From: Gemmatimonadales bacterium
GTDB lineage: Bacteria > Gemmatimonadota > Gemmatimonadetes > Gemmatimonadales > GWC2-71-9
Assembly (NCBI GenBank): GCA_025935995.1
Contig: JAICUF010000013.1
Coordinates: forward strand, 1-38,100
Length of the DNA: 38,100 bases
Direction of reading: 5' to 3'
Position numbers and translations under genes: made by a program. The notes beneath the pieces are model-generated. The model saw only the letters and a list, made by a program, of their open reading frames with translations, searched no databases and had not been told where the DNA came from. Below, piece by piece: positions 1,333 to 20,804 of the stretch. Each line of letters starts with the position of its first letter. Position 1 is the first letter of the stretch.

Positions 1333-1634
1333 CCGACCAGGAGCCGGAGGAGACACCCGACCTCCGGCACACCGAGCATGAGCAGCGCGACGTGCGGGTG
1401 ACGCGCGACCTGTCGGGCGGGGGCCACCTCGCCCGGGGCGACCGGACCCGCATGTCGCGCCTCAATTTCAGCGCCCGCGCGCGCCCGGCGGATCCGGGCG
1501 AGCGCGACCGCACCTTCGCCGAGCGCGACGCGGCATCGGTCGAGGTCCCGCCGCCGCCCCCGGAACCGGCCGCGCCGGATCCGGCGGCCGACCCGTCACT
1601 CATGCAGCGGGTGGGCAGGCTCTTCGGGCTCTAG
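1329..1634 (+). CDS. Small charged, proline-rich protein in T6SS operon, function unknown
   Basis: This encodes 101 residues, starting at a GTG that overlaps the tssC stop (GTGA). I do not recognise a family. The N-terminal two thirds are hydrophilic and rich in Arg, Asp and Glu, followed by an acidic/proline stretch (V-E-V-P-P-P-P-P-E-P near residues 72-81) and a short amphipathic tail, S-L-M-Q-R-V-G-R-L-F-G-L. There is no signal peptide or membrane span. The tight coupling between sheath and tube genes suggests a T6SS-specific accessory role, such as a sheath or tube adaptor. That role is inferred only from position. A disordered linker with a C-terminal docking helix is one possible architecture. 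Confidence 0.55.
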   Translation: MTDQEPEETPDLRHTEHEQRDVRVTRDLSGGGHLARGDRTRMSRLNFSARARPADPGERDRTFAERDAASVEVPPPPPEPAAPDPAADPSLMQRVGRLFGL

Positions 1635-4486: not shown

Positions 4487-6199
4487 ATGGCCAGCACGCC
4501 GTCGGTCCTGGGCTCCGCCGCGCGCGATGCGGGCGAGATCGCCGCCGAGCTCCGGCGGGAGTTCGACGTGGCCCTGCAGCAGCGCTACGGCACGCAGGCC
4601 CAGGCCGATCCCGTCCTCGCGACCCTCTTTCACGCCTTTGCCACGCAGATCGGCCGGCTCTACCAGGAGGCGGAATACGCCTTCCCCCTCGGCGTGCTCG
4701 ACGATCTGCTCGCCGGCCTCGGCATGCCGGCCCGGCTCGCGCAGCCCGCGCAGACGGTGGTTGCGCTCACCGGCATCACCCGCCGCGAGCGGCTCGCGCT
4801 CGACACGGAGTTCATCGGGACCGCTCGCTCCGGCGAGCGCTTCGCCTTCGTCCCCGACGATTCCATCGAGCTCGCTCCGACCGAGCTCCGCTTCGCCGCC
4901 ATCTACGAGAGCGGGCGCCTCACGACCATTTCGGGGGCGCGCCCGGTCAAGGGCGGCGCCTTCACCATGCCCTCCACGGCCGCGCTTGCCCTGGGTGCCG
5001 CGCCACCCGCCCTCTGGATCGCGCTCGATGCCGACGCGCCACACCTCGGCGGCCTCGGCATGATGCTCGACACGCTGCCGCTGGGTGGCCCGGTGGCGCG
5101 CTCGCTCGAGCTGAGCCCGTGGCACCTGCTCGACGCCGCCGGCGCCGTGACGGAAGCAGGCACACTGCGCGCCCGGCGCGGCCGGGGCGGGGTCCGGCGG
5201 CTGCAGTGGCTCGATGACATGTCGGCGTCTGACACCGACGATCCGATGGCGCGGGTGGTGAATCTCGCGGCCGGCCCCTACGGCGAGCAGGTGTTCATCT
5301 TTCCGCCCGTGCCGGAGGACCGGCGCTGGCGCGGCACCCTGCCGCGCGTCCTCGCTCCCGCCATCCCGGCTCTGCTGCCCCCCGACCAGGCCCGGGGACT
5401 CGCCCAGCCGCTCGCATGGCTGCACGTTCCGCTCGCACCGGGGACGCCGGCGGTGGCGAGCTCGGTGCAGCGGATCGCGCTGAACGCCGTCACGGCGTCG
5501 AACATGGAGGTCGTGGCCGAGCAGGTGCCGTTCGACCGTATGGGAACGGTGGTGACCCTCGAACCCGAGGGTCGCAAGGGACGGTTCCTGATGGGCGTCC
5601 TCAGCGTCACCGGCGAGCGGGGCTCCGCGTATGCCGCCGACAGCGCACTCGATGCCCCGCTCGGCGCGGGCCGCTGGCGCTACCGCGAGCGGCGGCTCGA
5701 TCTCCGCCCGGCGCAGGATCCCGCCGGCCGCCTCGACACCTACGCCATGGTCCGGCTCCTCTACTGCGACGGCGAGAGCGCCAACGGGATCGATCCGGGC
5801 GGGGTCCGCCAGCTCGGCTCGCCGCTCGGGAACGTGACCGCCAAGGTTTCGAATCTGGTGCCGAGCCGCGCGGGCGCCGCGCCACCCGAGTATCCGCCCG
5901 CGCGGCTGCGCTTCGCCGAGCTGGTGCGCACCCGCGAGCGCGTGGTGACGGCGGCCGATGCCGAGATCGCCGTGCGCGCCTTCGAGCCGCGGGTTGCGGC
6001 CGTGGCGGTGACGCCGGTGACGTCGGTCGAGGGCGGTCGCGCGCGGCAGGGTCAGCACGTCGCGGTGTCGGTCCGGCCGGCGGATTTCGCGGATCCGGAA
6101 GCGGAGCTGCCGCGACTCGGCGCCCAGCTCGAGCGGCACCTCCGGGAGCGCGCCGTCCTGGGGTTCAACCTGAGCGTGAGCGTCACCGCCGATGGCTGA
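4487..6199 (+). CDS. tssF: T6SS baseplate protein TssF (VasA-like)
   Basis: TssF forms the baseplate wedge with TssG and TssE and links it to TssK. The 570-residue length and position match the family. Early residues show the helical pattern L-R-R-E-F-D-V-A-L and a run of hydrophobic helices, with D-L-L-A-G-L-G-M-P near residues 73-81. The centre contains R-V-V-N-L-A-A-G-P-Y-G-E. The C-terminal domain resembles gpJ-like wedge proteins, and the end F-N-L-S-V-S-V corresponds to the last beta strands. The start is one base after the vgrG stop and the end overlaps tssG by eight bases. Divergence from proteobacterial TssF is high, so the call leans partly on gene order. Confidence 0.75.
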   Translation: MASTPSVLGSAARDAGEIAAELRREFDVALQQRYGTQAQADPVLATLFHAFATQIGRLYQEAEYAFPLGVLDDLLAGLGMPARLAQPAQTVVALTGITRRERLALDTEFIGTARSGERFAFVPDDSIELAPTELRFAAIYESGRLTTISGARPVKGGAFTMPSTAALALGAAPPALWIALDADAPHLGGLGMMLDTLPLGGPVARSLELSPWHLLDAAGAVTEAGTLRARRGRGGVRRLQWLDDMSASDTDDPMARVVNLAAGPYGEQVFIFPPVPEDRRWRGTLPRVLAPAIPALLPPDQARGLAQPLAWLHVPLAPGTPAVASSVQRIALNAVTASNMEVVAEQVPFDRMGTVVTLEPEGRKGRFLMGVLSVTGERGSAYAADSALDAPLGAGRWRYRERRLDLRPAQDPAGRLDTYAMVRLLYCDGESANGIDPGGVRQLGSPLGNVTAKVSNLVPSRAGAAPPEYPPARLRFAELVRTRERVVTAADAEIAVRAFEPRVAAVAVTPVTSVEGGRARQGQHVAVSVRPADFADPEAELPRLGAQLERHLRERAVLGFNLSVSVTADG

Positions 6200-7109
6200 C
6201 ACGCCCGTCATCATGCCCGATCTGGCCGGTGTGCGCCGGACCGCGCGGCACCGCGTCGACTCGGCCCTGCTCACGCTGCTGCGCCTCGGCGTGGATTTCG
6301 GCCGCATCGTGCTGGAGGCCGCCGGTCCGGGCGAATCCGCCGGCGCGGTCGTCGCCCAGGATCCGCCGCCGGGCACCGCACTGACACCGGTGTCGCGGAT
6401 CGCGCTTCGGGTCGGCGGCAGCGGCGGCCTCGACCTGATGCCGTTCCCCCTCCGGGACGAGAGCGACACCGAGTTCCGCGTCGACCGGCTCTTCGCCATC
6501 TTCGACAACCCGGCCCTCAAGCTCGGCTTCTTCCTGCGGCAGGGCGGGGCCTATCTCGCGCTGCACCCCGATGAGCCGCTTACGGCCCGTCGCTGGCTCG
6601 AGGATCTCTTCTCGGTGTCGGCGGAGCCCTGGCCGGCGGAGCGGTGGCACCCGCTGGCCCGCCTCATTCCGCGGCTGCACGCGCTGGGCGGCACCGCGGC
6701 GGCGGTCCGGGTCGCCATGCGCGCGATGTTCGATCTGCCGGTGGCGCAGGTGCGCGTCCGCCGTCGAATGGTGCCGGTCGCGGCGCCGGCCGTGATGCGC
6801 CTGGGCACGCGGAACGGGCGGCTCGGTTACGACGCGATGCTCGGCGGCGGGATCGTCGGCGACGCGCACCTGGAGATCACCTACGGCCCGCTCTCGCTTC
6901 CCGAGTGGCGTCGGCACGGGACGCCGGCGGCCGCGCGCGAGCGCGAGGCGCTCTTTCCCTACATCCTTCCCGCCCAGCTGTCGGCCGTGACCGAACGGTG
7001 GCAGGTGGGCGACGCGGCGGCCGGCACGCGGCTCGACGCCGCCGCGAGCCCCGCGCTGCTGGGCGTCAATGCGTATCTGGGTGCGATTCCCGTCAGGAGA
7101 GCTGCGTGA
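6192..7109 (+). CDS. tssG: PASTA-domain fusion of T6SS baseplate protein TssG
   Basis: This protein has 305 residues and two parts. Residues about 7-75 form a PASTA domain: M-P-D-L-A-G-V at the start, then G-A-V-V-A-Q-D-P-P-P-G-T-A-L and a closing strand R-I-A-L-R-V-G-G. Residues about 80-305 are TssG-like, with P-F-P-L-R-D-E, a central R-L-H-A-L-G-G-T, and a C-terminal R-L-G-T-R-N-G-R-L-G followed by Y-G-P-L-S-L. PASTA domains usually bind peptidoglycan or beta-lactams outside the cell in Ser/Thr kinases and penicillin-binding proteins, whereas TssG is cytoplasmic. The fusion is therefore unexpected. The remaining TssG part is shorter than usual (about 225 versus about 330 residues). The gene overlaps tssF by eight bases and tssK by four. 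Confidence 0.75.
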   Translation: MADTPVIMPDLAGVRRTARHRVDSALLTLLRLGVDFGRIVLEAAGPGESAGAVVAQDPPPGTALTPVSRIALRVGGSGGLDLMPFPLRDESDTEFRVDRLFAIFDNPALKLGFFLRQGGAYLALHPDEPLTARRWLEDLFSVSAEPWPAERWHPLARLIPRLHALGGTAAAVRVAMRAMFDLPVAQVRVRRRMVPVAAPAVMRLGTRNGRLGYDAMLGGGIVGDAHLEITYGPLSLPEWRRHGTPAAAREREALFPYILPAQLSAVTERWQVGDAAAGTRLDAAASPALLGVNAYLGAIPVRRAA

Positions 7110-8713
7110 CGAGCGACGAAAGCGGAATGCGGTCGGTCAACTGGATCTCGGGCATGCTGCTCACCCCCGACCACTTCAGCGCACAGGACCGCTACATCGA
7201 GGGAGCGTTCGGCTGGCTCCTGCGGCACGCGGTCCCGGCGACGGGGCTGCTCGGCGGCGGCGTCCGGCTCGAGGCGGCCGAACGCGGGCTCGCGGCCTAC
7301 GATCCGCGGCTCGAGGTGAGCGATGACGGCCGGCTCGTCACCGTGACGGTGCTGCAGGCGCGGGGCATCACCGCCGGCGGCGAGCCGGTGGACGTCGCGT
7401 CCGGCACGGCCGTGCGCGGCGAGACGCCCAAGGCGGAGCTCGCCGGCGCGCGTGAGGTCTACGTGTATCTGCTCCGCACCGGTGAGCGGGAAGAGGATCC
7501 TGCGTCCGTCGGCGCCGATCCCGCCAACCCGGTGATGGCCGCCTTTCGCCGCCCGAAGTACGAAGTGCGGTTCGGCGTGCCGGCCGACCAGCTCGAGCAT
7601 GCGCTCGTCGTCGGGCGCCTCCGCCGCGCGAGCGAATCGCTCGGGTTCGAGCGGGACAGCCAGTTCATCCCGGCGTGCGCCACCATGATGGCGCACAGCG
7701 AGCTGTTCGCCGGCTGGTCGCGGCTCCAGTCGGACCTCAACTACCTCACCGGGCAATTCGCCGAGCTGCACCGTGCCGTCGCACGCTATGCCGAGCAGGT
7801 CGGACGGCGCGGCGTCGACAGCCGGGGCGACCTCGATGTGCTCGCCTTCACCGAGCGAGCCGTGCTCGCGCTGGACGCGTGCGCGGCCGAGACGGCCGAT
7901 CCGGCGATCGCGCCCGCCCGGTTCTTCGACCAGATCGACCGCCTCGGCCGCCGCGTGGCGCTGGCGCTCGACCTGAGCAGCGCGACCCAGGCCTACTTCC
8001 AGACCCTCACCGGCGCGGACGCGGGATACGGCGATCTGCTCGAGGAGGAGCGCGGCGTGCTCGCGGCCCGGCGCGACGCCGGCGCCCGCGACGACCTTCG
8101 GCTCGCGCTCAGCCGCGCCGGCGACACGCTCCAGCGGATTCGCCGACTGGTCGAGGCGCTCGAGGGCAAGTACGTGGACTATCGCGTCAACCGCTCGGTG
8201 GACGCCGTCCGTTTCCTCCTCGATCGCCAGGGGGAGCAGTTCTACGTGGCGGTGGCGACGCCCGGTCACCCGCAGCGCGAGGGCGACCTGCTCACCTTCG
8301 TCTTCAGCCAGCTCGCGCTGGCGGGCCGCCACGAGTACCGGCTCGTCCTGCTGGGCGATCCGCAGGGCACCTCCGGCTGGCAGGTCGGCGACGAGCTGAA
8401 CGTCGACCTCCGGGTGAACAGCGAGGCCGGACCCGGCCGGCCGATCTCGCGCGCGGTGCCCTGCGAGATCCCCGGCCAGCGCAACTTCGGCGTCAACTTC
8501 GAGACCCCGCCCGATGTCGCCACCATCGCGGGGCTGAGCGTGCAGGTGCAGCCGGCGCATCGGGTGCGCGGCGCCGTGCTTTTCCAGCGGAAGCTCGGGC
8601 TCGTGGCGGAGGCGCCGACACCACCGTCGCCGTCCCCGGCGCCCCGTCCGGCGGAGGCTCACCCGACGCCGGCGGCGATGCCCAAGATCACCATCCGCAA
8701 GCCAACCGCCTGA
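7106..8713 (+). CDS. tssK: T6SS baseplate connector TssK
   Basis: TssK trimers connect the baseplate wedges to the membrane complex. Starting at a GTG that overlaps the tssG stop (GTGA) gives 535 residues. A GGAGA Shine-Dalgarno lies about five bases upstream. The hallmark N-terminal motif [12 protein letters not shown], typical of TssK, is at residues 13-24. The middle has long helices ([21 protein letters not shown]). The end is a Pro/Ala/Thr-rich linker followed by P-K-I-T-I-R-K. It is longer than the typical 445 residues, mainly through an expanded N-terminal region and this tail. TssK's C-terminal domain normally contacts TssL/TssM, so the tail could be adapted to a different membrane partner. 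Confidence 0.85.
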
Positions 8714-8738: not shown

Positions 8739-11444
8739 ATGGACCTGAACCGGCTCTCGATGGACCTCACCGCGGCGCTCGAGGAGTCCCGGCGCGCGGC
8801 CTCCCGCAGTGGCGCGGCCTACATCCGGCCGCGGCACCTGATGAGCGTGATGCTCGAGCCGGCCGGAGCGCTCGGACGGCTCGCGGGATCGCTCGGACTC
8901 GATGCCGCGATGGCCCGGCGCTTCGTCGACGGGGTCACCGACACCGATAACGAAGGGAAGCTGGTGCCGGGCCAGCAGCCGATCGCGAGCCGCGCGCTCC
9001 GCGATCTCCTCGACCGCGCCACCGCGCTGGTGGACCGCCGCGGTGCTCGCACGATCTCGCCGATCGATGTCGCGCTCGCGGCGGTGGAATCGCCGGGGCT
9101 GCCGGTGGGACGGGCGCTGATCGATGCCGGCTGGTCGCCGGAGCGGCTGGGGACGGCGGCGGAGAGCCCGGTCGTGAACCAGCCGGCGGAGGAGACCGCG
9201 GCCCCGGCGCCCGAGGGGCAGGGCAGCCAGCTCGAGCGCTTCTGTCGCGACCTCACGCAGGCCGCGCGCGAAGGCAAGCTCTCGCCCGTGATCGGACGGG
9301 ACGCCGAGCTCCGGAGCGTCCTGCAGACGCTACTCCGGAAGTCGAAGAACAATCCCGTCCTCGTGGGCGATCCGGGCACCGGCAAGACCGCGGTCGTGGA
9401 GGCGCTCGCGCAGCGGATCGCCGCCGGCGACGTCCCCGAGTCGCTCCGGAACGCGCGGGTGCTGGCCCTCGATCTTACCGGCCTCGTGGCCGGCGCCAAG
9501 TATCGGGGCGAGTTCGAGGAGCGGATCAAGGCCGTGGTGGACGAGGTGCGCGCGGCGGACGACGTCATCCTCTTCCTCGACGAGCTGCATACGCTGGTCG
9601 GCGCGGGCGGAAGCGCCGGCGGCATGGACGCCGCCAACATCCTCAAGCCGCCGCTCGCCCGCGGCGAGCTTCGCTGCGTCGGCGCCACCACGCACGACGA
9701 GTACCGCGAGTACATCGAGAAGGACGGCGCCCTCGCGCGGCGCTTCGAGAAGGTGATCGTGGACGAGCCGGACGACGAGACGGTGCTGATGATGCTCCGC
9801 GGGGTGAAGCCGCGCTTCGAGACGCATCACGGCGTCCGCATCGTCGAGGACGCCCTGCAGGCGACGGTGAAGCTCGCGCGGCGCCACCTGCGCGACCGCT
9901 TCTTCCCCGACAAGGCCTTCGACGTGCTCGACGAGGCCGCCGCGCGGCTTCGGATGCAGCACGAGTCGAAGCCCGACGCGATCGACTCGCTCGAGCGCGA
10001 GCTCATCCGCCTCGAGGGCCGGCGCCAGGCGCTCGAGGCCGCGGGCCGGAAGGCCGACGATCTAGCCGCCACGGCGAAGGAGATCGGCGCGAAGCAGGCG
10101 GAGCTCGACCGGCTCATGGCGCGGTGGACGGCGGAGAAGGACGTCTCGGAGGGGCTGCAGCAAACCCGCGCGGCCCTCGCGGCGAAGACCGCCGAGCTCG
10201 CCGCCGCCGAGGCCGCGGGCGACGTGGCGCGGGTAGCGGGGCTCCGGCATGTGGAGATCGAGGGACTCACACGGGAGGAGGCACAGCTCGTTGCGCGGCT
10301 CGAGAAGCTCAAGGCCGACGGGCTCATGGTGCCGCAGGAAGTCGGGCCGTCGGACATCGCCGACGTGGTCGCGCGTCGCGCCCGCGTGCCCGTCGCCCGC
10401 ATGATGGAGACCGAGCGCGACCGCCTCCTCAAGCTGGAGGAGCGGCTGGCCGAGCGCGTGATCGGGCAGGGCGAGGCGGTGGATACGCTGGCGGAAGCCG
10501 CGCGCCGGATGCGGGCCGATCTCCGGAAGAAGCGGAAGCCGGCGTCGTTCCTCTTCGTCGGCCCCACCGGCGTCGGCAAGACGGAGCTGGCCAAGGCGCT
10601 GGCCGGTGCCCTCTTCGACGACGAGGCCGCGCTCATCCGCATCGACATGGCGGAGTACAAGGACGCGGGTTCGGTGTCGGGGCTGATCGGCTCGCGTCCC
10701 GGACTGGTGGGATCCGAGCAGGGCGGCTTCCTCACCGAGCAGGTCCGGCGGAACCCCAACTCGGTCGTGCTCTTCGACGAGATCGAAAAGGCGCACCCCG
10801 AGGTGATCGACATCCTCCTCGGCGTGCTCGACGAGGGCCGGCTCACCGACGCGAAGGGCCGGTTCACCGACTTCACCAACACGATCATCCTGCTGACCTC
10901 GAATCTCGGCGTGAAGGAGGCGGTGGCGGCGACGGACGACCTCGAGGCGCGGCGCGAGATCATCCTCAAGGTGGTGCAGGCGACGCTGCGGCCCGAGCTC
11001 TTCAACCGCCTGAGCGGCGTCATCCCCTTCAACTCGCTCGCGGTGGACACGCTCCGGACGATCGTGCGGATTCACCTGCGCGGCATCTCGGCGCAGATCG
11101 CCGAGCAGCACCAGGCCTCGCTCGAGGCGGACGACGCGGCCGTCGCACTCCTCGCCGAGCGGGCGTACGATCCCGCCTACGGCGCGCGGCCGGTCGAGCG
11201 CACCATCGACCGGATGGTGCTCTCCGATCTCTCGCGGCTCATCATCGGAGGGACGGTCCAGCCCGGGAATCTCGTCCTGCTCACGCTCGACGGCGAGGAG
11301 GTCGCGATTCTGGTGGGCGAGCCCGCCGAGGTCCGGGAGGAAGCAGCTCGGATGCGGGAGGCCCGGGCAGCGGCGTCCGCCGCCGCGGCGACGCCGGGTA
11401 CGGCGCCGACCTCCGACGCCCCCGCGGTCGGAGCCCCTGCATGA
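8739..11444 (+). CDS. clpV: T6SS AAA+ disassembly ATPase ClpV (TssH)
   Basis: ClpV unfolds contracted sheath so that TssB/TssC can be recycled. This 901-residue Hsp100 protein has a Clp N-domain (about residues 1-145), a Pro/Glu/Ala linker and a first AAA+ module with Walker A G-D-P-G-T-G-K-T at 210-217 and Walker [10 protein letters not shown] coiled-coil middle region (about 410-520) follows, then a second AAA+ module with Walker A G-P-T-G-V-G-K-T at about 608-615 and Walker B V-L-F-D-E-I-E-K, and a C-terminal D2-small domain. The last 30 residues are an Ala/Pro/Thr-rich tail. Chaperone ClpB is the close paralogue, but location directly after tssK makes the T6SS form far more likely. The stop overlaps the next ATG by four bases. 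Confidence 0.9.
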
Positions 11445-12385
11445 GAGGTGGCGCGCTGCTGCTGGTCCTCGCGCTATCGCGCGCCGCGGCGGCGCAGGAT
11501 ACGACCGCCGCGCCGGCGCCGGCCGGTGCGCAGGGCGCGGCGGCCCAGCGGGATGTGGAGAGGAACAAGGTGGTGCAGTTCTGCCAGCAGGTGGACATCA
11601 CGGCGCCGCCCACCATCGAAGGCGCGCGTGACCGCACCGACTGCTGGAAGCGTCTCCAGCTTCAGGGGATGGGTGACGCGCTGGTGGATGCGAAGTACCA
11701 GGCCGCCGTCGCCGACTTCGATCAGGCCACGCAGAAGGACTCCACGCGCCGGGCCAGCGATTCGAGCGCCGCGGCGATCAACAATCGCATGCTCGTCGCC
11801 CAGCGGGCCATCCAGGCGCGCAACCTCGACGACGCCGAGAGCGCGGTGAACGACGTGCTCTCGATCCAGCCCGACAACCAGCGCGCCCTCGTGCTGAGCG
11901 ACCGGATCACGGCGCTCAAGCGCGCGCGCCAGCTCAAGATCACCCTCTTCGCCGTCGGCGCCGCCGTGCTCGCGCTCGGTGCGGGGCTCGGCATCGTCGC
12001 GAAGAAGCTGGGGAAGAAGCACACCGAGAAGGCGGCGCAGGAGAAGGTCGCCGCCGCCGAGCGGAAGGCGATGCTCAAGATCGTGGACGGGGTGGGCCGC
12101 GGGAAGGTCTACACCATCGAGGCGCCGCTCTTCCGGATCGGCGCCGCCAGCTCCGACAAGGCCGAGGAGAAGAACGACCTCGTGCTGAGCGATTCAGCCG
12201 CGGCGATCTCGCGCTATCACTGCTCGATCATCCGTCGCGACGGGCGGTTCTTTCTCATCGATTCCAGCCTCAACGGCACCCGCCTCAACGACGCGCCGCT
12301 CGACCGGGGCGAGCACCACGCGCTGCGCGACGGCGACGAGCTCACGGTCGCGGGAGTGAGCCGGCTCAAGTTCCTCGAGATGTAG
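11441..12385 (+). CDS. Signal peptide-periplasmic-TM-FHA protein, T6SS-associated
   Basis: This protein has 314 residues. A signal peptide (residues 1-19, ending A-A-A-A-Q) is followed by a helical, TPR-like periplasmic region. Two cysteines (C48 and C68) could form a disulfide. A single membrane span lies at about 166-188, then a Lys/Glu/Ala coiled stretch, then an FHA domain at about 211-312. The FHA phosphothreonine-binding residues are visible as S-R-Y-H (257-260) and N-G-T (279-281). The topology puts FHA in the cytoplasm and the N-terminal part in the periplasm. FHA proteins recruit phosphorylated partners in Pseudomonas T6SS (Fha1/PpkA), but no kinase gene lies in this window. Its ATGA overlap with clpV ties it to the operon. 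A structural anchor or phospho-switch is inferred, not shown. Confidence 0.8.
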
Positions 12386-13558
12386 CCCGACGGTCCAGCG
12401 GTCGCGCCGGTTGGCGAAGCGGTCGATGTGGAGGTGAAGCCCGGTGCCCGCCCGGTCGAGCAACCCCGCCCGCGTCGCCGCCGCGATCTGCCGCCGGAGG
12501 ATCGTGTCCTGCGAGAAATCCTTCACCCGGATGCCGCGCGAGCGGCACTCCGCTACGACGAATGCCACCTCCTCCGGTGTCATCGTCCGGCTCCTGAGGT
12601 CGAGCGCTCCGCCCGCCCCATAGAGCGAGAGGTGCTCCGCGTGGTCCCGCCCCGTCACCTCGATCCCCGACCCGAACCGCTGCTCGAATCCCGCCGACAC
12701 CTCGGCAAAGGCCGCCGCGAACTGCTCGGGCGTGAGCGACGCCTGCCGGAGCCGGTCGGGCGCCAGGGTGGCCCGCGCCGAGGCGTAGGCCGGCGGAACG
12801 GTGAGCCGCCGGTTCCGGTAGATCGCCGCAACCGAGGCCTCCAGCGCCTCGATGCGCGGCTTGATCGCCGGATGATCGCGGTAGCGGCTCAGGGCGAGCG
12901 TGTTGACCCCCCGGGCAAACTCGCCGGCGGCCACGTCCGCGAGCCCGAGCTCGAGCAGCGTGTTGCCCCGCTCGACGTGGTCGTACGCGGCCACCATGAG
13001 GCTGTCCACCTCCCTCCCCTGCTCGTCGGTCAGCACGCCACCCGTCCGATCGGCCCGGAAGAGGCCGAAGCCGATCGCGGCGATGGCGCCGGCGACCAGC
13101 AGGACGGCCAGCGAGGCGACGATGATGAGCGCCACGGGCCGGCGCCGGCGCGGCCCCGGGAGTCGCGAGGCGCGCTTCCGCCGCCGGGGCGCAGGCGGCG
13201 CCGGAGCTGCGGGTGGCGTTTCCGCCGCCTCGCCGCTCCCGAAGCGATAGCGGTAGCCCGGCGCCACCTCGATCACGTCCCCGTCGGCCAGGCGCTCGGT
13301 GTGCGCGAGCGGCACGCCGTTGAGCGACGCGGCCCCGCGCCCGGGCGTGAGCCACCACCCGTCTTCCCGCTCGGTGAGGGCCACGTGCCGCTCGGCCACG
13401 CCGGGCAGGAAGAGCTGCAGCGTCGCGTCGGGCGCGCTGCCGATCCACGCGGGCGAGCGGTCGAGCGCGATGGGCACGCCGCGCGTCGGCGCGACGGGAA
13501 TGAGCGAGGGCGTCGGCATCGTGGCCTTGTCGGCTGGGCTGCATGAACTATCCTCCAT
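12194..13558 (-). CDS. FHA-TM-periplasmic D-Ala-D-Ala peptidase-like (M15) protein
   Basis: This is 454 residues from an ATG with AAAGGAGG three bases upstream. The ATG at 13519 (M-P-T-P-S) is an alternative start. A cytoplasmic FHA-like domain (about 28-106, with R-H-V-A-L and S-L-N-G-V) is followed by a Pro/Arg-rich linker, a membrane span (about 142-166), and a helical periplasmic part. The last recognisable part is Hedgehog/M15 peptidase-like: E-H-L-S-L-Y-G-A-G-G-A-L-D (308-320), then G-T-G-L-H-L-H-I-D (371-379), resembling the Zn-ligand HxxGxAxD and H-x-H motifs. The spacing of the first His to Asp is longer than in the standard motif, so catalytic status is uncertain. Residues about 390-454 overlap antisense to the plus-strand FHA gene. 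It is divergent from the hydroxyproline operon. Confidence 0.7.
   Translation of the reverse strand: MEDSSCSPADKATMPTPSLIPVAPTRGVPIALDRSPAWIGSAPDATLQLFLPGVAERHVALTEREDGWWLTPGRGAASLNGVPLAHTERLADGDVIEVAPGYRYRFGSGEAAETPPAAPAPPAPRRRKRASRLPGPRRRRPVALIIVASLAVLLVAGAIAAIGFGLFRADRTGGVLTDEQGREVDSLMVAAYDHVERGNTLLELGLADVAAGEFARGVNTLALSRYRDHPAIKPRIEALEASVAAIYRNRRLTVPPAYASARATLAPDRLRQASLTPEQFAAAFAEVSAGFEQRFGSGIEVTGRDHAEHLSLYGAGGALDLRSRTMTPEEVAFVVAECRSRGIRVKDFSQDTILRRQIAAATRAGLLDRAGTGLHLHIDRFANRRDRWTVGLHLEELEPAHSRDRELVAVAQRVVLAPVERRVVEAGAVEAGIDEKEPPVATDDRAVIARDRRG
13527..13554 (+). promoter_or_regulatory. Putative sigma-70-type promoter for hydroxyproline operon
   Basis: TTGTCG at 13527-13532 is followed by a 16-base spacer and TATCCT at 13549-13554. 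The predicted transcription start is near 13561, about 25 bases before the M24 peptidase ATG. The -10 form resembles the CTATCTT of the tRNA-His promoter. It lies within the coding start of the divergent FHA-M15 gene, so transcription in the two directions could interfere. Confidence 0.4.
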
Positions 13559-13585: not shown

Positions 13586-14878
13586 ATGACCGAGATGAAC
13601 CGCCGCCGGTTCGGCGGCTGGCTGGCCGCCGCCGTCGGCGCGGGCGCACTGGCCCCCGGCCGGCTCTTCGCCGCCAGCCCTCCCGGCGATCCCGATCCGT
13701 GCGATCTGCCCGCCCACCTCCGCGGGCTCAAGCCGATGACGGAGGGCGTCGCGCCGATCTCACCGGCCGAGCGCCTCGCGCGGCTGGAGCAGGCGCGACG
13801 CCTCATGCGGGAGAGCGGCATCGCCGCGGTCGTGCTGGAGCCGGGCTCGTCGCTCTACTACTTCACCGGCGTGCGCTGGGGACAGTCGGAGCGGACCTTT
13901 GCCGCCGTCGTGCCCGCGACGGGAGATCTCGCCTGGGTCTGCCCCGCCTTCGAGGAGGCGCGTGCGCGCGAGCTGATTCCGGCGGGCGGGGAGGTGCGCG
14001 TCTGGCAGGAGGACGAGAGCCCCTTCCGCCTGATCGCCGGCATCCTCAAGGACCGCGGTGTCGCGACCGGCAAGGTCGGGATCGAGGAGAACCTGCGGTT
14101 CTTCATCCTCGACAACCTCCGGCGCGAGGCGCCCGCGCTCGAATACGTGAGCGCCGACCCGGTCACCGCCGGCTGCCGCATGATCAAGTCGCCGGCCGAG
14201 CTGGCGCTGATGCAGCGGGCGGCGGACATCACCATCGCCGCCTTCCGTGCCACCTTCCCGATCCTGCACGAGGGCATGACGCAGTACGACGTGAGCGGCC
14301 AGATGAGCGCCGCGCTCACCCACCTCGGCGGCCAGGAGCCGTGGGTGCTGGTGGGGCTCGGCGAGTATTCGGCCTTCCCGCACGGCAGCATCAAGCCGCA
14401 GCGGCTGCGCCAGGGCGACGTCGTGCTCATCGACGCGGGCTGCAGCTTCCAGGCGTATCAGGCCGACATCACGCGCACCAGCGTCCTGGGGAAGCCCACC
14501 GCGCGGCAGACCCGGATATGGAACCTCGAACGGAAGGCGCAGGACGCCGCCTTCGCCGCCGCGCGGCCGGGCGCCACCTGCGAGTCGGTGGATGCGGCGG
14601 CACGGAAGGTCATCGCCGACGCGGGATTCGGCCCGGGCTACAAGGTGCCGGGCCTCCCGCACCGGACCGGACACGGCATCGGGCTGGACGGCCACGAATG
14701 GACCTACCTGGTCCGCGGCAACCAGACGAAGCTCCGCCCGGGGATGTGCTTCAGCGACGAGCCCACGATCGTGATCTACGGCGAGTTCGGCATTCGCCTC
14801 GAGGACTGCATGTACATCACCGACGACGGCGCCCGCTTCTTCTCGCGGCAGAGCGAGTCGATCACCCGGCCGGTCTGA
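13586..14878 (+). CDS. Tat-exported M24 family Xaa-Pro peptidase
   Basis: This 430-residue M24 (pita-bread) metallopeptidase cleaves peptides with Pro or Hyp, typically X-Pro dipeptides. The first residues carry a Tat-like signal, N-R-R-R-F-G-G (5-11), then a hydrophobic segment ending near residue 30. The five metal ligands are present: D283 (L-I-D-A-G), D294 (Q-A-D-I-T-R), H363 (R-T-G-H-G-I-G), E392 (S-D-E-P-T) and E406 (R-L-E-D). The N-terminal creatinase-like domain spans about 60-200. It heads an operon for hydroxyproline breakdown, so release of Hyp from exported or imported collagen-type peptides is the likely role. The start codon has no clear Shine-Dalgarno. ATG at 13595 is an alternative. 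A specific substrate cannot be read from sequence. Confidence 0.85.
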   Translation: MTEMNRRRFGGWLAAAVGAGALAPGRLFAASPPGDPDPCDLPAHLRGLKPMTEGVAPISPAERLARLEQARRLMRESGIAAVVLEPGSSLYYFTGVRWGQSERTFAAVVPATGDLAWVCPAFEEARARELIPAGGEVRVWQEDESPFRLIAGILKDRGVATGKVGIEENLRFFILDNLRREAPALEYVSADPVTAGCRMIKSPAELALMQRAADITIAAFRATFPILHEGMTQYDVSGQMSAALTHLGGQEPWVLVGLGEYSAFPHGSIKPQRLRQGDVVLIDAGCSFQAYQADITRTSVLGKPTARQTRIWNLERKAQDAAFAAARPGATCESVDAAARKVIADAGFGPGYKVPGLPHRTGHGIGLDGHEWTYLVRGNQTKLRPGMCFSDEPTIVIYGEFGIRLEDCMYITDDGARFFSRQSESITRPV

Positions 14879-14880
14879 TC

Positions 14881-16320
14881 ATGGCGAACCTCCTCCGGAG
14901 CTACGTCGGCGGGGCCTTCATCGCGACCGCGGGCGACCCCTTCGACGATCTGAACCCTTCCGACGCCGACGACATCGTCGCGCGCGTGCCCGCGGGGAAT
15001 GCCGACGACGCGGCGGCCGCGGTGCGCGCGGCCGCGCAGGCGCTGCCCGCCTGGCGCGACCTGCCGGGCCCGGCCCGGGCGGAACATCTCCATCGCTGGG
15101 GCGAGGTGATCGGCTCGCGCGCCGAAGAGCTGGCGCAGGCCATGGCCCGCGAGGTGGGCAAGCCGCTCGGCGAGGCGCGGGGAGAAGTCGCCCGCTGCAG
15201 CGTGATCCTCCGCTACTACGCCGGCGAGGCGGTGCGCGCGATCGGCGAGGTCGTCCCGGCGCAGGCGGCCGGCGTGCTCCAGTTCACGCTCCGCGACCCG
15301 CTCGGCGTCGTGGCGCTCATCACGCCGTGGAATTTCCCGCTCGCGATCCCGCTCTGGAAGGCGGCGCCGGCGCTCGCCTTCGGGAACACGGTGGTGCTCA
15401 AGCCGGCGGAGCAATCGTCGCACCTGGCCATCCTCCTCGCGGAGACGGCCGAGGCGGCGGGGCTTCCGGCCGGCGCCTTCAACGTGGTGGCCGGCGCCGG
15501 CGGCACCGTGGGTGACGCGCTCATCCGGCACCCGGATGTCCGCGCGGTCAGCTTCACCGGCTCGACCACCGTCGGCGCGCGCGTGGCACAGGTGTGCGCC
15601 GAGCGAAACGTGCGATACCAGACGGAGATGGGGGGCAAGAACGTCGCGATCGTTCTGGCCGACGCCGACCTCGACCTTGCGGCTCGCCTCACCGCCGCCG
15701 GCGCGATGCGCTACGCGGGGCAGAAGTGCACCGCGACGAGCCGCGTGGTGGTCGCGCGATCGGTCGAGGACCGGTTCCTCGCGAAGCTCGGGGCACAGGT
15801 GAATGCGCTCTCGCTCGGACCGGTGACCGACGCCGCGAGCGCCGTGGGTCCGCTGATCAGCAGCGACGCGCGGGACCGCGTCCGCGCGGCACTGGCCGCG
15901 GCCGGGGGCGAGCGCCTGGCCGGCGGGGATGCCCCGTCCGATGCGCGCTTCGCCCGCGGCTTCTTCGTCACCCCGGCGATCGTGCGGGGGGTCGACCCCG
16001 ACGCCGCGCTCGCGCAGGACGAGCTCTTCGGCCCCGTCCTCGCGAGCTTCACCGCGGCCGATCTCGACGAAGCGGTGGCGCTCGCCAATCGCTCGCGGTA
16101 CGGCCTGAGTGCCACCCTCTTCACGCGGGATCTGCCCTCCGCGCTGGCGTATATCCGGCGGATCCACGCGGGCCTCGTCCGCGTCAACGGCGACACCACG
16201 GGCGTCGATCCCCACGCGCCGTTCGGCGGGATGAAGGCATCGAGCTCCGGCAGCCGGGAGCAGGGTTCGGCCGCGCGCGAGTTCTACACCGAGATCCGCA
16301 CGGTGCAGGTGGTGGGGTGA
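14881..16320 (+). CDS. Alpha-ketoglutarate semialdehyde dehydrogenase (ALDH family)
   Basis: This 479-residue NAD(P)-dependent aldehyde dehydrogenase contains all the key catalytic residues: N151 in T-P-W-N-F-P, E249 in E-M-G-G-K-N, and the nucleophile C283 in G-Q-K-C-T-A-T. Operon context places it at the last step of hydroxyproline catabolism, oxidising 2,5-dioxopentanoate (alpha-ketoglutarate semialdehyde) to alpha-ketoglutarate. The start is two bases after the upstream stop, and its stop overlaps the next start by four bases. ALDH substrate cannot be told from motifs alone. The specificity comes from neighbours, and related semialdehydes would be possible. Confidence 0.88.
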   Translation: MANLLRSYVGGAFIATAGDPFDDLNPSDADDIVARVPAGNADDAAAAVRAAAQALPAWRDLPGPARAEHLHRWGEVIGSRAEELAQAMAREVGKPLGEARGEVARCSVILRYYAGEAVRAIGEVVPAQAAGVLQFTLRDPLGVVALITPWNFPLAIPLWKAAPALAFGNTVVLKPAEQSSHLAILLAETAEAAGLPAGAFNVVAGAGGTVGDALIRHPDVRAVSFTGSTTVGARVAQVCAERNVRYQTEMGGKNVAIVLADADLDLAARLTAAGAMRYAGQKCTATSRVVVARSVEDRFLAKLGAQVNALSLGPVTDAASAVGPLISSDARDRVRAALAAAGGERLAGGDAPSDARFARGFFVTPAIVRGVDPDAALAQDELFGPVLASFTAADLDEAVALANRSRYGLSATLFTRDLPSALAYIRRIHAGLVRVNGDTTGVDPHAPFGGMKASSSGSREQGSAAREFYTEIRTVQVVG

Positions 16321-17270
16321 CGGCGTATCCCGCCTGCATCCGCGTGGTGGATTCCCACACCGAGGGCGAGCCGACGCGCGTCGTCGTCGAGGGCTGGCCC
16401 GAGCCCGCCGGCGCGACCATGGCCGAGCGTCGCGAGGACCTGCGGCAGCGGTTCGACCATCTCCGGAGCGCGGTCGTCTGCGAGCCGCGCGGGCACGACG
16501 CCCTCGTCGGCGCCCTCCTCACGACGCCGGTGCATTCCGGATCGGCCGCCGGCGTCATTTTCTTCAACAACGTCGGCTGCCTCGGCATGTGCGGGCACGG
16601 ACTCATCGGCGTGGTGCGCACGCTGGAGCACCTGGGCCGGCTCGAGCCCGGCGCCGTCGCGATCGACACGCCCGTCGGAACGGTATCCGCGGAGCTGGAT
16701 GCCGACGGCACCGTGACGGTCCGGAACGTGGCCGCCCGCTGCCACGCGCGCGGCGTGCCGGTGGACGTGCCCGGTGTCGGCACCGTGACCGGCGATGTCG
16801 CCTACGGCGGCAACTGGTTCTTCATCAGCGAGATGGAGGGGCTGCCGCTCGACCTGGCCAACCAGTTCGAGCTGACGCGGGTGACGCGCGCCATCCTCGC
16901 CGCGCTCCGCGCCCAGGGGATCACGGGCGAGGCCGGCGCGGAGATCGATCACGTCGAGCTGTCCGGCCCTCCCACCCGCGCCGACGCCGACAGCCGGAAC
17001 TTCGTGCTCTGCCCGGGCGGCGCGTGGGACCGGTCTCCCTGCGGCACCGGCACCTCCGCCCGGATGGCCGCGCTGCATGCGGCCGGGCAGCTGCCGGCCG
17101 GCCGGCGCTGGCGCCAGGAGAGCATCACCGGAAGCGTCTTCACCGGGTGGCTCGAGGACGCCGGCGACGATCTCGTTCCCCACATTCAGGGACACGCCTG
17201 GATCACGGGCGAAGCCGTGCTGCGCTTCGATCCGGCCGATCCGTTCCGGAGCGGGTTCACCGCGGGCTGA
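16317..17270 (+). CDS. 4-Hydroxyproline 2-epimerase (proline racemase family)
   Basis: This 317-residue cofactor-independent enzyme of the proline racemase family interconverts trans-4-hydroxy-L-proline and cis-4-hydroxy-D-proline. Both catalytic cysteines are present: C92 in G-M-C-G-H-G and C242 in D-R-S-P-C-G-T-G-T-S. That excludes the trans-3-hydroxyproline dehydratase subgroup, which has Thr at the second site. It starts at a GTG overlapping the ALDH stop (GTGA). Neighbouring D-hydroxyproline dehydrogenase and deaminase genes support a hydroxyproline rather than proline substrate. Homologues in Pseudomonas are called LhpA. Confidence 0.9.
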   Translation: MTAYPACIRVVDSHTEGEPTRVVVEGWPEPAGATMAERREDLRQRFDHLRSAVVCEPRGHDALVGALLTTPVHSGSAAGVIFFNNVGCLGMCGHGLIGVVRTLEHLGRLEPGAVAIDTPVGTVSAELDADGTVTVRNVAARCHARGVPVDVPGVGTVTGDVAYGGNWFFISEMEGLPLDLANQFELTRVTRAILAALRAQGITGEAGAEIDHVELSGPPTRADADSRNFVLCPGGAWDRSPCGTGTSARMAALHAAGQLPAGRRWRQESITGSVFTGWLEDAGDDLVPHIQGHAWITGEAVLRFDPADPFRSGFTAG

Positions 17271-18397
17271 TGTCTCGACCCGACGCGATCGTTGTCGGCG
17301 GCGGGATCGTCGGCGCTGCCTGCGCGCGCGAGCTGGCGATGGCGGGGCTCGGCGTCACACTGGTCGAGGCGGAGTTCGTCGGCGGCGGGGCCACGGCCGC
17401 GGGGATGGGTCACATCGTCGTGATGGATGACTCGCCCCCACAGTTCGGCCTCACCGCGCTGTCGCGCGCGCTGCTCGACGAGCTCGCGCCCGCGCTGCCC
17501 GCCGCCGTCGAGCGCGACCGCTGCGGCACGCTCTGGGTGGCCGAGGATGAGGACCAGCTTGTCGCGGCGCGGCTCAAGGCCGCGGCCTACGGCGACGCGA
17601 AGGTCGAGGCCTCCGTCGTCGACGGCGCCGAGCTGCCGCGGCTCGAGCCCGGGCTTCGTCCGGGGCTCGCCGGCGGCCTTCTCGTCCCCGGCGACGGCGT
17701 CGTCTATCCGCCGGCCCTCGCGCGCTGGCTTGCGGAGGATGCGCGGCGGCTCGGTGCCGCAATCCGCGAAGGCGAGCCGGTCACGGCGCTCGACGGGCGC
17801 TCGGTCATGACCGCGCGCGGCCGGATCGACGCCGCCCTGGTCGTGAATGCGGCCGGCGCCGCCGCGCCGATCCTGACGCACGGACTTCCGATCGTTCCCC
17901 GCCGCGGCCATCTCGTCATCACCGACCGTCATCCGGGCTTCTGCCGCCATCAGGTGCTCGAGCTCGGCTATCTCAAGAGCGCGCATTCATCGACCGGCGC
18001 CTCCGTCGCCTTCAACGTGCAGCCGCGGATGACGGGACAGGTGCTGATCGGATCGTCGCGCGAGCTGGTCGGCTGGAACCGCACGCCGAATCGCGCGCTG
18101 CTCGGCCGGATGCTGCGCCGCGCGGCCGACTTCATGCCGGCGCTCGCGGGTCTCTCCGCCATCCGGAGCTGGATCGGCTTCCGGCCCGCCACGCCCGACA
18201 ACCTGCCCCTGATCGGACCCTCGAGCCGGATCGACGGCCTCTGGATCGCGGCCGGACACGAGGGGCTGGGCATTACGACCGCGCTCGGGACCGCGCGCCT
18301 GCTGGGCGACCTGATCCTGGGACGCGCTCCCTCGCTCGATCCGGTTCCGTTCACGCCCGACCGGAGCGGCGAACCCGCGGCCGCGGTCCATGCCTGA
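17270..18397 (+). CDS. D-hydroxyproline dehydrogenase, FAD (DAO-family) subunit
   Basis: This 375-residue protein is a glycine/D-amino-acid oxidase family flavoprotein. It has an N-terminal Rossmann motif, V-V-G-G-G-I-V-G-A (residues about 8-16), an acidic end V-E-A-E, and the C-terminal family segment G-L-W-I-A-A-G-H-E-G-L-G-I near the end. The start TGATG overlaps the epimerase stop. With the next two genes it forms the three-subunit D-hydroxyproline dehydrogenase type known from Pseudomonas aeruginosa (FAD, FMN/FAD and 2Fe-2S subunits). It oxidises cis-4-hydroxy-D-proline to 1-pyrroline-4-hydroxy-2-carboxylate. Adjacent coupling to a ferredoxin-like subunit argues against a lone oxidase. 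Confidence 0.85.
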   Translation: MSRPDAIVVGGGIVGAACARELAMAGLGVTLVEAEFVGGGATAAGMGHIVVMDDSPPQFGLTALSRALLDELAPALPAAVERDRCGTLWVAEDEDQLVAARLKAAAYGDAKVEASVVDGAELPRLEPGLRPGLAGGLLVPGDGVVYPPALARWLAEDARRLGAAIREGEPVTALDGRSVMTARGRIDAALVVNAAGAAAPILTHGLPIVPRRGHLVITDRHPGFCRHQVLELGYLKSAHSSTGASVAFNVQPRMTGQVLIGSSRELVGWNRTPNRALLGRMLRRAADFMPALAGLSAIRSWIGFRPATPDNLPLIGPSSRIDGLWIAAGHEGLGITTALGTARLLGDLILGRAPSLDPVPFTPDRSGEPAAAVHA

Positions 18398-18638
18398 GCT
18401 CGTCGAGTTTACCGTGGACGGCGTCACCTGTCGGGCGGCCCCCGGCACCTCGCTCGCGGCCGCCATGCTCGATGCGGGGGTGACCGCGTTCCGCCGTTCC
18501 CGTACCGGCGAGCCGCGCGGCCCCGTGTGCGGCATGGGGATCTGCTTCGAGTGCCGAGTGGCGATCGACGGCATCGCGCATCGCCGCGCATGCCTCGAGC
18601 CGGTGCGCGCGGGGATGACGGTTCGGACCGGTGAGTGA
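18390..18638 (+). CDS. D-hydroxyproline dehydrogenase small [2Fe-2S] subunit
   Basis: This 82-residue ferredoxin-like protein corresponds to the gamma subunit of the heteromeric D-hydroxyproline dehydrogenase (the HcnA/SoxD-like small subunit family). Its cysteines lie in C-G-M-G-I-C-F-E-C (residues about 47-55) and in R-R-A-C, the usual arrangement of a plant-type [2Fe-2S] cluster, with another Cys near the N-terminus. It overlaps the FAD subunit by eight bases and the alpha subunit by eight. A function outside this complex is unlikely. Confidence 0.88.
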   Translation: MPELVEFTVDGVTCRAAPGTSLAAAMLDAGVTAFRRSRTGEPRGPVCGMGICFECRVAIDGIAHRRACLEPVRAGMTVRTGE

Positions 18639-19902
18639 CGCGTCCGTCCTCGAGACCGACGTCGCGATCGTCGGAGCCGGTCCTGCCGGAATCGCCGCCG
18701 CGGTGGCCGCCCGCGCCGAGGGCGCGCGGACGCTGCTCCTCGATTCGGCGCCGAGGCCCGGAGGACAGATCTGGCGACACCGCGATCCGGCTCAGCTTCC
18801 CGCGTCCGGCCGCCGGTGGATCGAGCGGCTGTCAGGATCCGGCGCGGAGTGGATTCACTCCGCCAATGCGATCGATCTCCCCGCGCCCGGCGTCCTCATC
18901 GCCGAGCGCGAGGGGAGAGCATTCACCATCCGCTGGCGCTCACTCGTCATCGCGACCGGCGCCACGGAGCGCCTCCTCCCGTTTCCCGGATGGACCCTTC
19001 CGAATGTGTTCGGCGTCGGCGGCCTGCAGGCGCTGCTCAAGGCCGGCGCGAGCGTGGCGGCCAGGCGCGTGATCGTGGCCGGGTCGGGGCCGCTCCTCCT
19101 GCCGGTGGCGTCGTCGCTCGCGGCTGCCGGCGCCACGATCCGGCTCGTGGCGGAGCAGGCGCCGGCGCTCCGCGTGTACCGCTTCGCGGGCGCGCTCTGG
19201 TCCGACCCCGTACGGCTGGCACAGGCGGCCCGATACCGGGCCGGATTCCGTCGGGCGCGCTATCGCTGCGGCACCTGGATCGTCCGGGTCGATCCGGTCG
19301 GAAGCGCGCTGAGCGTCACGCTCACCGATGGCCGCCGCATCTGGACCGACCGGACGGATCTCGTGGCGGTCGGCTATGGGCTGGTGCCGGACGTACGTCT
19401 GGCGCGGCTCGCCGGGTGCAGCATCGCCTCCGGGTGCGTGGCCGTCGACCGGTCGCAGCGCACCAGCGTCCCCAGCGTCTTCTGCGCCGGCGAGCCGACC
19501 GGCATCGCCGGCGCGGACTCGGCCGTAGCGCAGGGACGCCTGGCCGGTGCGGCCGCCGCCGGTGCCCGCCGCACGGGCGGGGCCGCGTCGCGCGCCAGGC
19601 GTTTCGCGGCCCGGCTCGATCGGGCCTTCGCGCTCCGTCCCGACTTGCGCGCCCTTCCCGATCCCGCCACCATCGTCTGTCGCTGCGAGGACGTGTCGCT
19701 GGGCGAGATAGGTGAAGGGTGGAGCGCGCGGCAGATCAAGCTCTACACGCGCGCCGGCATGGGGCCCTGCCAGGGCCGCGTCTGTCAGCCGGCCCTCGAA
19801 TTCCTGCGTCGAACCGGCGCCGATGCCGTGCGCCTGCCGCTCTTTCCAGCTCCAGTCGGCCTGCTGGCCGACCACGCCAACCGGGACGAGGGAGACTCGT
19901 GA
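18631..19902 (+). CDS. D-hydroxyproline dehydrogenase, NAD/FAD-binding alpha subunit
   Basis: This 423-residue pyridine-nucleotide-disulfide oxidoreductase family protein starts at a GTG inside the preceding gene's end. The N-terminal dinucleotide-binding motif is V-A-I-V-G-A-G-P-A-G (11-20). A second Rossmann motif is V-A-G-S-G-P near the centre. The C-terminus has a BFD-like [2Fe-2S] domain with C350, C352, C380 and C385 (V-C-R-C and P-C-Q-G-R-V-C). This architecture matches the alpha subunit of opine/D-hydroxyproline dehydrogenases, where it relays electrons from the substrate-oxidising subunit. Final electron acceptor is not evident from sequence. Confidence 0.87.
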   Translation: MSDASVLETDVAIVGAGPAGIAAAVAARAEGARTLLLDSAPRPGGQIWRHRDPAQLPASGRRWIERLSGSGAEWIHSANAIDLPAPGVLIAEREGRAFTIRWRSLVIATGATERLLPFPGWTLPNVFGVGGLQALLKAGASVAARRVIVAGSGPLLLPVASSLAAAGATIRLVAEQAPALRVYRFAGALWSDPVRLAQAARYRAGFRRARYRCGTWIVRVDPVGSALSVTLTDGRRIWTDRTDLVAVGYGLVPDVRLARLAGCSIASGCVAVDRSQRTSVPSVFCAGEPTGIAGADSAVAQGRLAGAAAAGARRTGGAASRARRFAARLDRAFALRPDLRALPDPATIVCRCEDVSLGEIGEGWSARQIKLYTRAGMGPCQGRVCQPALEFLRRTGADAVRLPLFPAPVGLLADHANRDEGDS

Positions 19903-20804
19903 TGCAGCAGCAAGACTGGGCCGGCGTCCTTCCCGCCATCACCACGCCGTTCGGCAGCGACGGCGAAATCGACGCGCCCGCGCTCGCCGCCCACGTCGTG
20001 TGGCTCGCGGACGCCGGCTGCCGGGGCATCGTGGCGCTCGGCTCGCTCGGCGAAGGCGCCACGCTGCGGGCCGACGAGAAGGTGCGGGTCCTGCAGATCT
20101 GCCGGGAAGCGCTGAGCGGACGGGTGCCGCTCATCGCGGGCATCAGCGGGCTCTCCACCGAGGAGTGCGTGTCGCTCGCGCGCGCCTCGGAGCGCGTCGG
20201 CTGCGCCGGCCTCATGGTGCTCCCGCCGTACGTCTACCGCGGCGACTGGCCCGAGACGGAGGCGCACCTCTCCGCGGTGCTCGGCGCCACGTCGCTGTCC
20301 TGCATGCTCTACAACAACCCGATCGCGTACGGCACCGACCTTCTGGCCGATGACGTCGCACGACTGGCCGACCGGCACCGGAACGTGCACGCGGTGAAGG
20401 AATCCAGCGGCGACGTCCGGCGGATCACCGCGCTCCGGTCGGCGCTGGGCAATCGCCTGCAGCTGTTCGCGGGCCTCGACGACATGATCGTGGAAGCGGT
20501 AGCGATGGGGGCCCATGGATGGGTCGCGGGGCTGGTGAACGCGCTGCCGGTCGAGTCGGTCCGCCTGTTCGAGCTCGCCCGCGCCGGGCGAGCCGAGGAG
20601 GCCCGACGCCTCTACGACTGGTTCCTCCCGCTCCTCCGATTCGACACCGTGCCGAAATTCGTGCAGCTCATCAAGCTGGCGCAGGCGGAGGTGGGGAAGG
20701 GGAGCGAGCGGGTGCGCCCGCCGCGTCTCGCCCTGCCGGCGGCGGAGCGGGCCGAGGCGGTCACCGTGCTCCATCGCCAGCTCGCGGTGCGGCCGCTGCT
20801 CTAG
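19902..20804 (+). CDS. DapA-family 1-pyrroline-4-hydroxy-2-carboxylate deaminase
   Basis: This 300-residue TIM-barrel protein is of the DapA/N-acetylneuraminate lyase superfamily. The Schiff-base lysine is K166 (A-V-K-E-S-S-G-D), and the Tyr of Y-N-N-P is at 137. A GAGGGAG Shine-Dalgarno precedes the ATG. In the hydroxyproline pathway this family converts 1-pyrroline-4-hydroxy-2-carboxylate to alpha-ketoglutarate semialdehyde, releasing ammonia, and its position after the dehydrogenase subunits supports that. True lysine-pathway DapA is unlikely in this context. The stop lies one base from the end of the convergent esterase gene. Confidence 0.87.
   Translation: MQQQDWAGVLPAITTPFGSDGEIDAPALAAHVVWLADAGCRGIVALGSLGEGATLRADEKVRVLQICREALSGRVPLIAGISGLSTEECVSLARASERVGCAGLMVLPPYVYRGDWPETEAHLSAVLGATSLSCMLYNNPIAYGTDLLADDVARLADRHRNVHAVKESSGDVRRITALRSALGNRLQLFAGLDDMIVEAVAMGAHGWVAGLVNALPVESVRLFELARAGRAEEARRLYDWFLPLLRFDTVPKFVQLIKLAQAEVGKGSERVRPPRLALPAAERAEAVTVLHRQLAVRPLL

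Follow-up and report, generated by a model that had tools for sequence, protein, structure and literature searches.

In Bacteroidota, the T6SSiii lacks TssJLM and has five other proteins, including TssN, with five transmembrane (TM) segments and an EccD-like domain, TssR, which carries a vWA domain, and single-TM proteins (PMC10781749). In Acinetobacter, TagX, which consists of TM segments and a VanY-type domain, is needed for the T6SS (PMC5061870). In Agrobacterium, Fha is reported to read phosphorylated TssL (PMC3953482).

The window analysed in this study is a stretch of 38,100 nucleotides from a Gemmatimonadales bacterium (contig JAICUF010000013.1, positions 1 to 38,100). It carries a T6SS locus and, beside it, a gene for a protein with an FHA-like domain, a TM helix and a likely M15-like domain on one chain, called FHA-M15 here. 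We suggest, with a probability of roughly 0.6, that FHA-M15, which accompanies this T6SS in some soil bacteria of the Gemmatimonadota, belongs to an alternative T6SS membrane complex replacing TssJLM and is its subunit that faces the peptidoglycan. To our knowledge, envelope anchoring and wall passage of T6SSs without TssJLM are known only for Bacteroidota, and a description of such a T6SS in Gemmatimonadota was not found in the open-access literature, judged by title and abstract.

The T6SS locus

The T6SS genes of the window lie on the plus strand. Family matches were obtained for the TssC sheath subunit (PF17541, 1-1332), VgrG (2563-4485), TssG (6192-7109), TssK (7106-8713; TIGR03353, E 2e-11) and a ClpV/ClpB-type AAA+ unfoldase (8739-11444). 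Hcp (1683-2162) and a TssE/gp25-like protein (2166-2531) were assigned by position only, and TssF (4487-6199) by its place in the operon order, as these three gave no family match. This gene content confirms the T6SS neighbourhood that the sequence-only reading had described for FHA-M15, which is transcribed against the T6SS operon in most loci. In the same genome, tssB and the first 41 codons of the window's tssC (L156 10526-10648, equivalent to window 1-123) lie at the end of contig C36, with PAAR, LysM, vWA and multi-TM genes upstream of tssB. The window opens with these same 41 codons, which points to a single T6SS locus broken in assembly, the window being its other half.

Some other features of this region were also recorded. 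A small conserved protein of ~100 residues, with no family match, is encoded between tssC and hcp (window 1329-1634, plus strand; L032 13579-13896). Residues 8-75 of TssG gave a PASTA-like match that narrowly missed the cut-off (E 8e-5). PASTA domains are normally wall-facing, and one in a cytoplasmic baseplate protein is odd. The unfoldase scored 899 bits as ClpB and 707 bits as ClpV. Beside the T6SS, at 13586-20804 on the plus strand, there is an operon that resembles hydroxyproline catabolism by the opening residues of its products, of which the M24 protein alone was checked; its genes encode an M24 peptidase, an aldehyde dehydrogenase, a proline-racemase-like protein, FAD oxidases and a DHDPS-like protein.

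The FHA-M15 gene and its topology

The protein had been placed at 12194-13558 in the sequence-only reading. The minus-strand open reading frame from 13558 or 13519 to 12194 is a real gene, as indicated by the ORF calls and by homologues at 39-87% identity in several genera, but both of its limits needed revision. The ATG at 13519 is more likely to be the start than the ATG at 13558. At the other end, no protein conservation is seen beyond the motif RWTV near 12383, where many homologues have a stop codon, and the last ~62 codons (12194-12382, minus strand) form a read-through tail that runs antisense to the convergently oriented FHA gene 11441-12385 at its 3′ end and is not conserved as protein. 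The conserved extent is thus 12383-13519 on the minus strand, the strand of all FHA-M15 features given below.

Of 100 other genomes in the same family, 11 contained a match, which in two cases spanned the FHA region only; homologues also occur outside it, in further families and orders of the class. All 15 named contigs with a homologue belong to Gemmatimonadota. The domain order, consisting of an FHA-like domain, a basic linker, one TM helix, a helical region and a C-terminal domain of 125 residues, is conserved in 19 Gemmatimonadota homologues. The one-chain architecture noticed earlier, an FHA-like domain joined through the membrane to a periplasmic M15-like domain, was recovered by PF00498 for the first part, by hydropathy and charge for the membrane span, and by the structure model, Foldseek and profile comparison for the last part.

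FHA-M15 has one hydrophobic segment (13073-13129; KD 2.92), with a net charge of +10 before it and -2 after it, and all ten aligned homologues likewise have a surplus of positive charges ahead of the TM helix. The charge distribution therefore indicates that the FHA-like domain is inside and the C-terminus outside. The periplasmic helical region (12758-13057) has three long helices in the AF2 model. When the whole periplasmic region was submitted to Foldseek against the PDB, only TPR-like helical noise was returned.

The C-terminal domain and its putative metal site

The AlphaFold model of the isolated C-terminal domain (12383-12757) had a pLDDT of 84.8 and a pTM of 0.76. Foldseek against predicted viral proteins returned mostly Peptidase M15A, Hedgehog-like and endolysin peptidase domains at the top, with probabilities of 0.89-0.99 and E-values of only 0.03-0.06, while the PDB gave no confident match, the L-Ala-D-Glu peptidase ChiX appearing only at rank 50 (E 3.5). 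The M15/Hedgehog-like fold expected from the letters of the sequence is thus supported by structure prediction and the viral search. No M15 match was obtained for this domain in Pfam, NCBIfam or the PDB up to E 10, and no relatives were found by sequence in Pfam, NCBIfam, PHROGs, the PDB, phages or viral contigs. Profile comparison by hhalign with six phage M15A-like proteins and E. coli MepK scored 29.5, in the right register over GxAxD and spanning 29-58 columns. This score exceeds all 600 shuffles: 300 column shuffles reached at most 22.4, and 300 eight-column block shuffles at most 29.3. The block shuffles were beaten only narrowly, and we regard the domain, from structure search and profile comparison, as likely but not proven to be M15-like. 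A comparison with Gemmatimonadota M15_3 proteins that carry large insertions was rejected, since it gave a wrong register and a probability of 1.4%.

The residues His293, Glu295, His296, Tyr300, Asp307, His362, His364 and Asp366 are invariant in 19 of 19 aligned homologues. The aspartate of the A-L-D motif and the H-L-H-x-D residues pointed out by the sequence-only reading are thus kept throughout, and none of these homologues loses the His or Asp. In joint MAFFT alignments His296 (12632-12634), the proposed first metal ligand, aligns with the zinc His through an insertion of four residues, and Asp307 (12599-12601), the proposed second ligand, meets the Asp; the first His stands at H-x10-D in all three modes. 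His364, the proposed third ligand in His362-Leu-His364 (12428-12436; H375/H377 of the earlier numbering), meets the last M15 His in two of three modes, the third placing a gap differently just before His364. Of the expected zinc ligands, the Asp and the C-terminal His are invariant; the canonical H-x6-D is replaced by H-x10-D, and the invariant Tyr300 (12620-12622) occupies the zinc His position of the ungapped M15 alignment. The invariant residues argue for a preserved site which, given the H-x10-D spacing, may serve either catalysis or binding.

The FHA-like domain

The FHA region (13265-13444) is matched by PF00498 at E 9.8e-6, over the curated cut-off, and this match is found in nine of ten FHA-M15 members. 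Among NCBIfam models, the FHA-TM part scores best with SctD/YscD (TIGR02500; residues 12-141, E 2e-7), though below the curated cut-off. This model matches four of ten members, and the Fha/TagH model TIGR03354 matches weakly in three of ten. In the alignment FHA-M15 shows IGS, AERH and no NGT, whereas other FHA proteins of the same genome show GR, SRxH and NGT. The T6SS-linked copies lack the phosphothreonine-contacting R, S and N.

Absence of TssM and the envelope module

The genomes surveyed were mostly MAGs. TssM (TIGR03348) was detected in none of seven genomes with the FHA-M15 type of T6SS versus 10 of 11 other TssK-bearing Gemmatimonadota (Fisher 2.5e-4), these 11 being the ones tested among 14 diverged-TssK genomes found. 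The models PF06761 (IcmF-related), PF06744 (IcmF_C) and DotU gave no accepted match in T6SS genomes with FHA-M15; TssL was looked for with PF09850 alone, in seven genomes, and this search had no positive control from the phylum. Two genomes gave weak DotU matches (E 0.3-0.7), but these sit on the TM helix of the FHA-M15 gene and were discarded as TM similarity rather than TssL.

FHA-M15 is present in eight of 150 Gemmatimonadota genomes, a multi-TM protein is present in exactly the same eight (chance about 2e-13), and seven of the eight have the type-specific TssK. The eighth, G001, carries tssB, tssC, hcp, vWA and multi-TM genes of the same T6SS type on another contig, so that its FHA-M15 gene, alone on contig C158, does not make a case for an often solitary gene. 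The co-occurrence with T6SS across Gemmatimonadota that had been anticipated was found as a tight link in these 150 genomes; a prediction lacking the M15/Hedgehog fold, homologues deprived of the His and Asp residues, or homologues routinely away from T6SS genes were not encountered. One genome, G019, has two short TssK-like matches (C276) and neither TssM nor FHA-M15, and its system is possibly a third kind or a fragment.

In the window, the partner gene FHA2 (11441-12385, plus strand) encodes a protein with a probable signal at its start, a periplasmic part, a TM segment and a C-terminal cytoplasmic FHA domain that retains SRxH and NGT, as judged by alignment and hydropathy. In many relatives a Ser/Thr kinase gene (PF00069, E 4e-28) follows FHA2. 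The vWA protein has a PF00092 match and a C-terminal TM segment, and the multi-TM protein shows between three and six hydrophobic segments when a simple hydropathy rule is applied; to our eye, its N-terminal part looks ubiquitin-like. Neither protein matched the Tss envelope families in Pfam at E 10. A second block of FHA-M15, FHA2, vWA and multi-TM genes, mostly also with a SEL1-repeat gene and a kinase and without sheath, tube or baseplate genes, occurs in G035 (L031 14762-19976), G073 (L029/L030) and G186 (L117), and partly in G097. The recurrence of this sheath-free block suggests that the four proteins work as a unit.

Discussion

We propose that FHA-M15 is an envelope subunit of a T6SS without TssM, and probably also without TssJ and TssL. 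The degenerate, SctD-like FHA domain in the cytoplasm would dock on the baseplate side, on a putative partner there, and the TM helix and helical stretch would carry the M15A-like domain to the peptidoglycan. Together with FHA2, the vWA-TM protein and the multi-TM protein, it may form the anchor in place of TssJLM. Points that weigh against this proposal are the transcription of FHA-M15 opposite to the operon in most loci, the non-canonical spacing of the metal motif, the PDB search that gave no confident match, and a genome set made up mostly of MAGs. At the wall, the M15-like domain would either cut peptides locally and let the complex through, for which we see about even odds, or hold the peptidoglycan without cutting, which appears rather less probable. 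A wider reading, which we put slightly below even odds, is that this is a further, Gemmatimonadota type of T6SS with its own membrane complex of multi-TM, vWA-TM, FHA2 and FHA-TM-M15 proteins, one subunit of which joins a T3SS-ring-like cytoplasmic domain to a peptidoglycan enzyme and both anchors the machine and opens the wall.

The sequence-only reading had compared the protein with the peptidase TagX of the Acinetobacter T6SS. FHA-M15 might be an active M15 endopeptidase, bound to the membrane, whose sole task is to open the wall, the FHA domain merely localising it and other, unrecognised proteins forming the anchor. The M15A-like fold found by Foldseek and the invariance of H296, D307, H362 and H364 in all 19 homologues would fit, and TagX itself is a T6SS-required protein of TM segments and a VanY-type domain (PMC5061870). 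Against it speak the H-x10-D spacing, the lack of a Glu/Asp at three residues ahead of the final His, the resemblance of the FHA-TM part to a ring-forming structural protein, and the recurrence of FHA-M15 in a block with other envelope genes. As the host T6SS has no detectable TssM (0/7 genomes), FHA-M15 is better read as a part of the membrane complex than as an add-on of the TagX type, which we consider unlikely.

That reading had also offered gating of wall opening by phosphorylation. Since the FHA-like domain lacks the phosphothreonine contacts and scores best against the T3SS ring protein SctD/YscD, phospho-gating on the same chain seems unlikely, and the full scheme, in which a neighbouring kinase makes the phosphothreonine that this domain binds, the binding then activating or positioning the peptidase, is highly improbable. 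The kinase gene that adjoins the FHA-M15/FHA2 pair in many relatives, and the phosphorylated TssL reportedly read by Fha in Agrobacterium (PMC3953482), would be in its favour, but the pair has no kinase gene beside it in the window, and it is FHA2 that keeps SRxH and NGT. If phosphorylation matters at all, FHA2 would be the better candidate reader. FHA-M15 could also be a pseudo-enzyme sensor or an immunity-type protein that travels with T6SS loci and has no role in the machine. Its convergent orientation, the variable C-terminal tails and the extra copies per genome are what such a protein might show, but its shared occurrence with core and envelope genes across the 150 genomes and residues invariant over several families and orders make this hardly credible. 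If FHA-M15 is indeed a membrane-complex subunit, Gemmatimonadota would have solved the problem independently a second time, by an anchor subunit that contains a wall-enzyme-like domain and a T3SS-inner-ring-like part. This would illustrate the exchange of bases among contractile machines and connect anchoring to the opening of the wall.

Comparison with known systems

The canonical T6SSi differs from the Gemmatimonadota system in having TssM in its membrane complex. Fha/TagH is likewise an FHA protein of a T6SS locus, but FHA-M15 spans the membrane, carries a periplasmic enzyme-like domain and has lost the phosphothreonine site. TagX shares with FHA-M15 the membrane anchor, a periplasmic domain resembling the M15 clan and the link to T6SS; however, it is of the VanY type (Pfam13539), for which FHA-M15 gave no match in the Pfam search (PF13539), has no reported FHA domain and works beside a canonical membrane complex. 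With Peptidase M15A of phage endolysins and MepK, FHA-M15 has in common the fold and the GxAxD and HxD motifs, and it differs by the four-residue insertion (H-x10-D) and an extra helix before the last His.

SctD/YscD/PrgH of the T3SS has a similar plan, with a degenerate cytoplasmic FHA domain, one TM helix and a C-terminal periplasmic part. FHA-M15, which goes with a T6SS rather than a T3SS, has a helical and M15-like region instead of ring-building (BON-like) domains, and YscD_ppl_3rd gave one weak match in a single member. The TssNQOPR system has no TssJLM, as is probable for that of Gemmatimonadota, and like it combines a multi-TM protein (TssN), a vWA protein (TssR) and single-TM proteins whose periplasmic parts are helical. 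FHA and M15-like domains are not reported there; the likeness lies in the layout, and we regard the two complexes as analogous.
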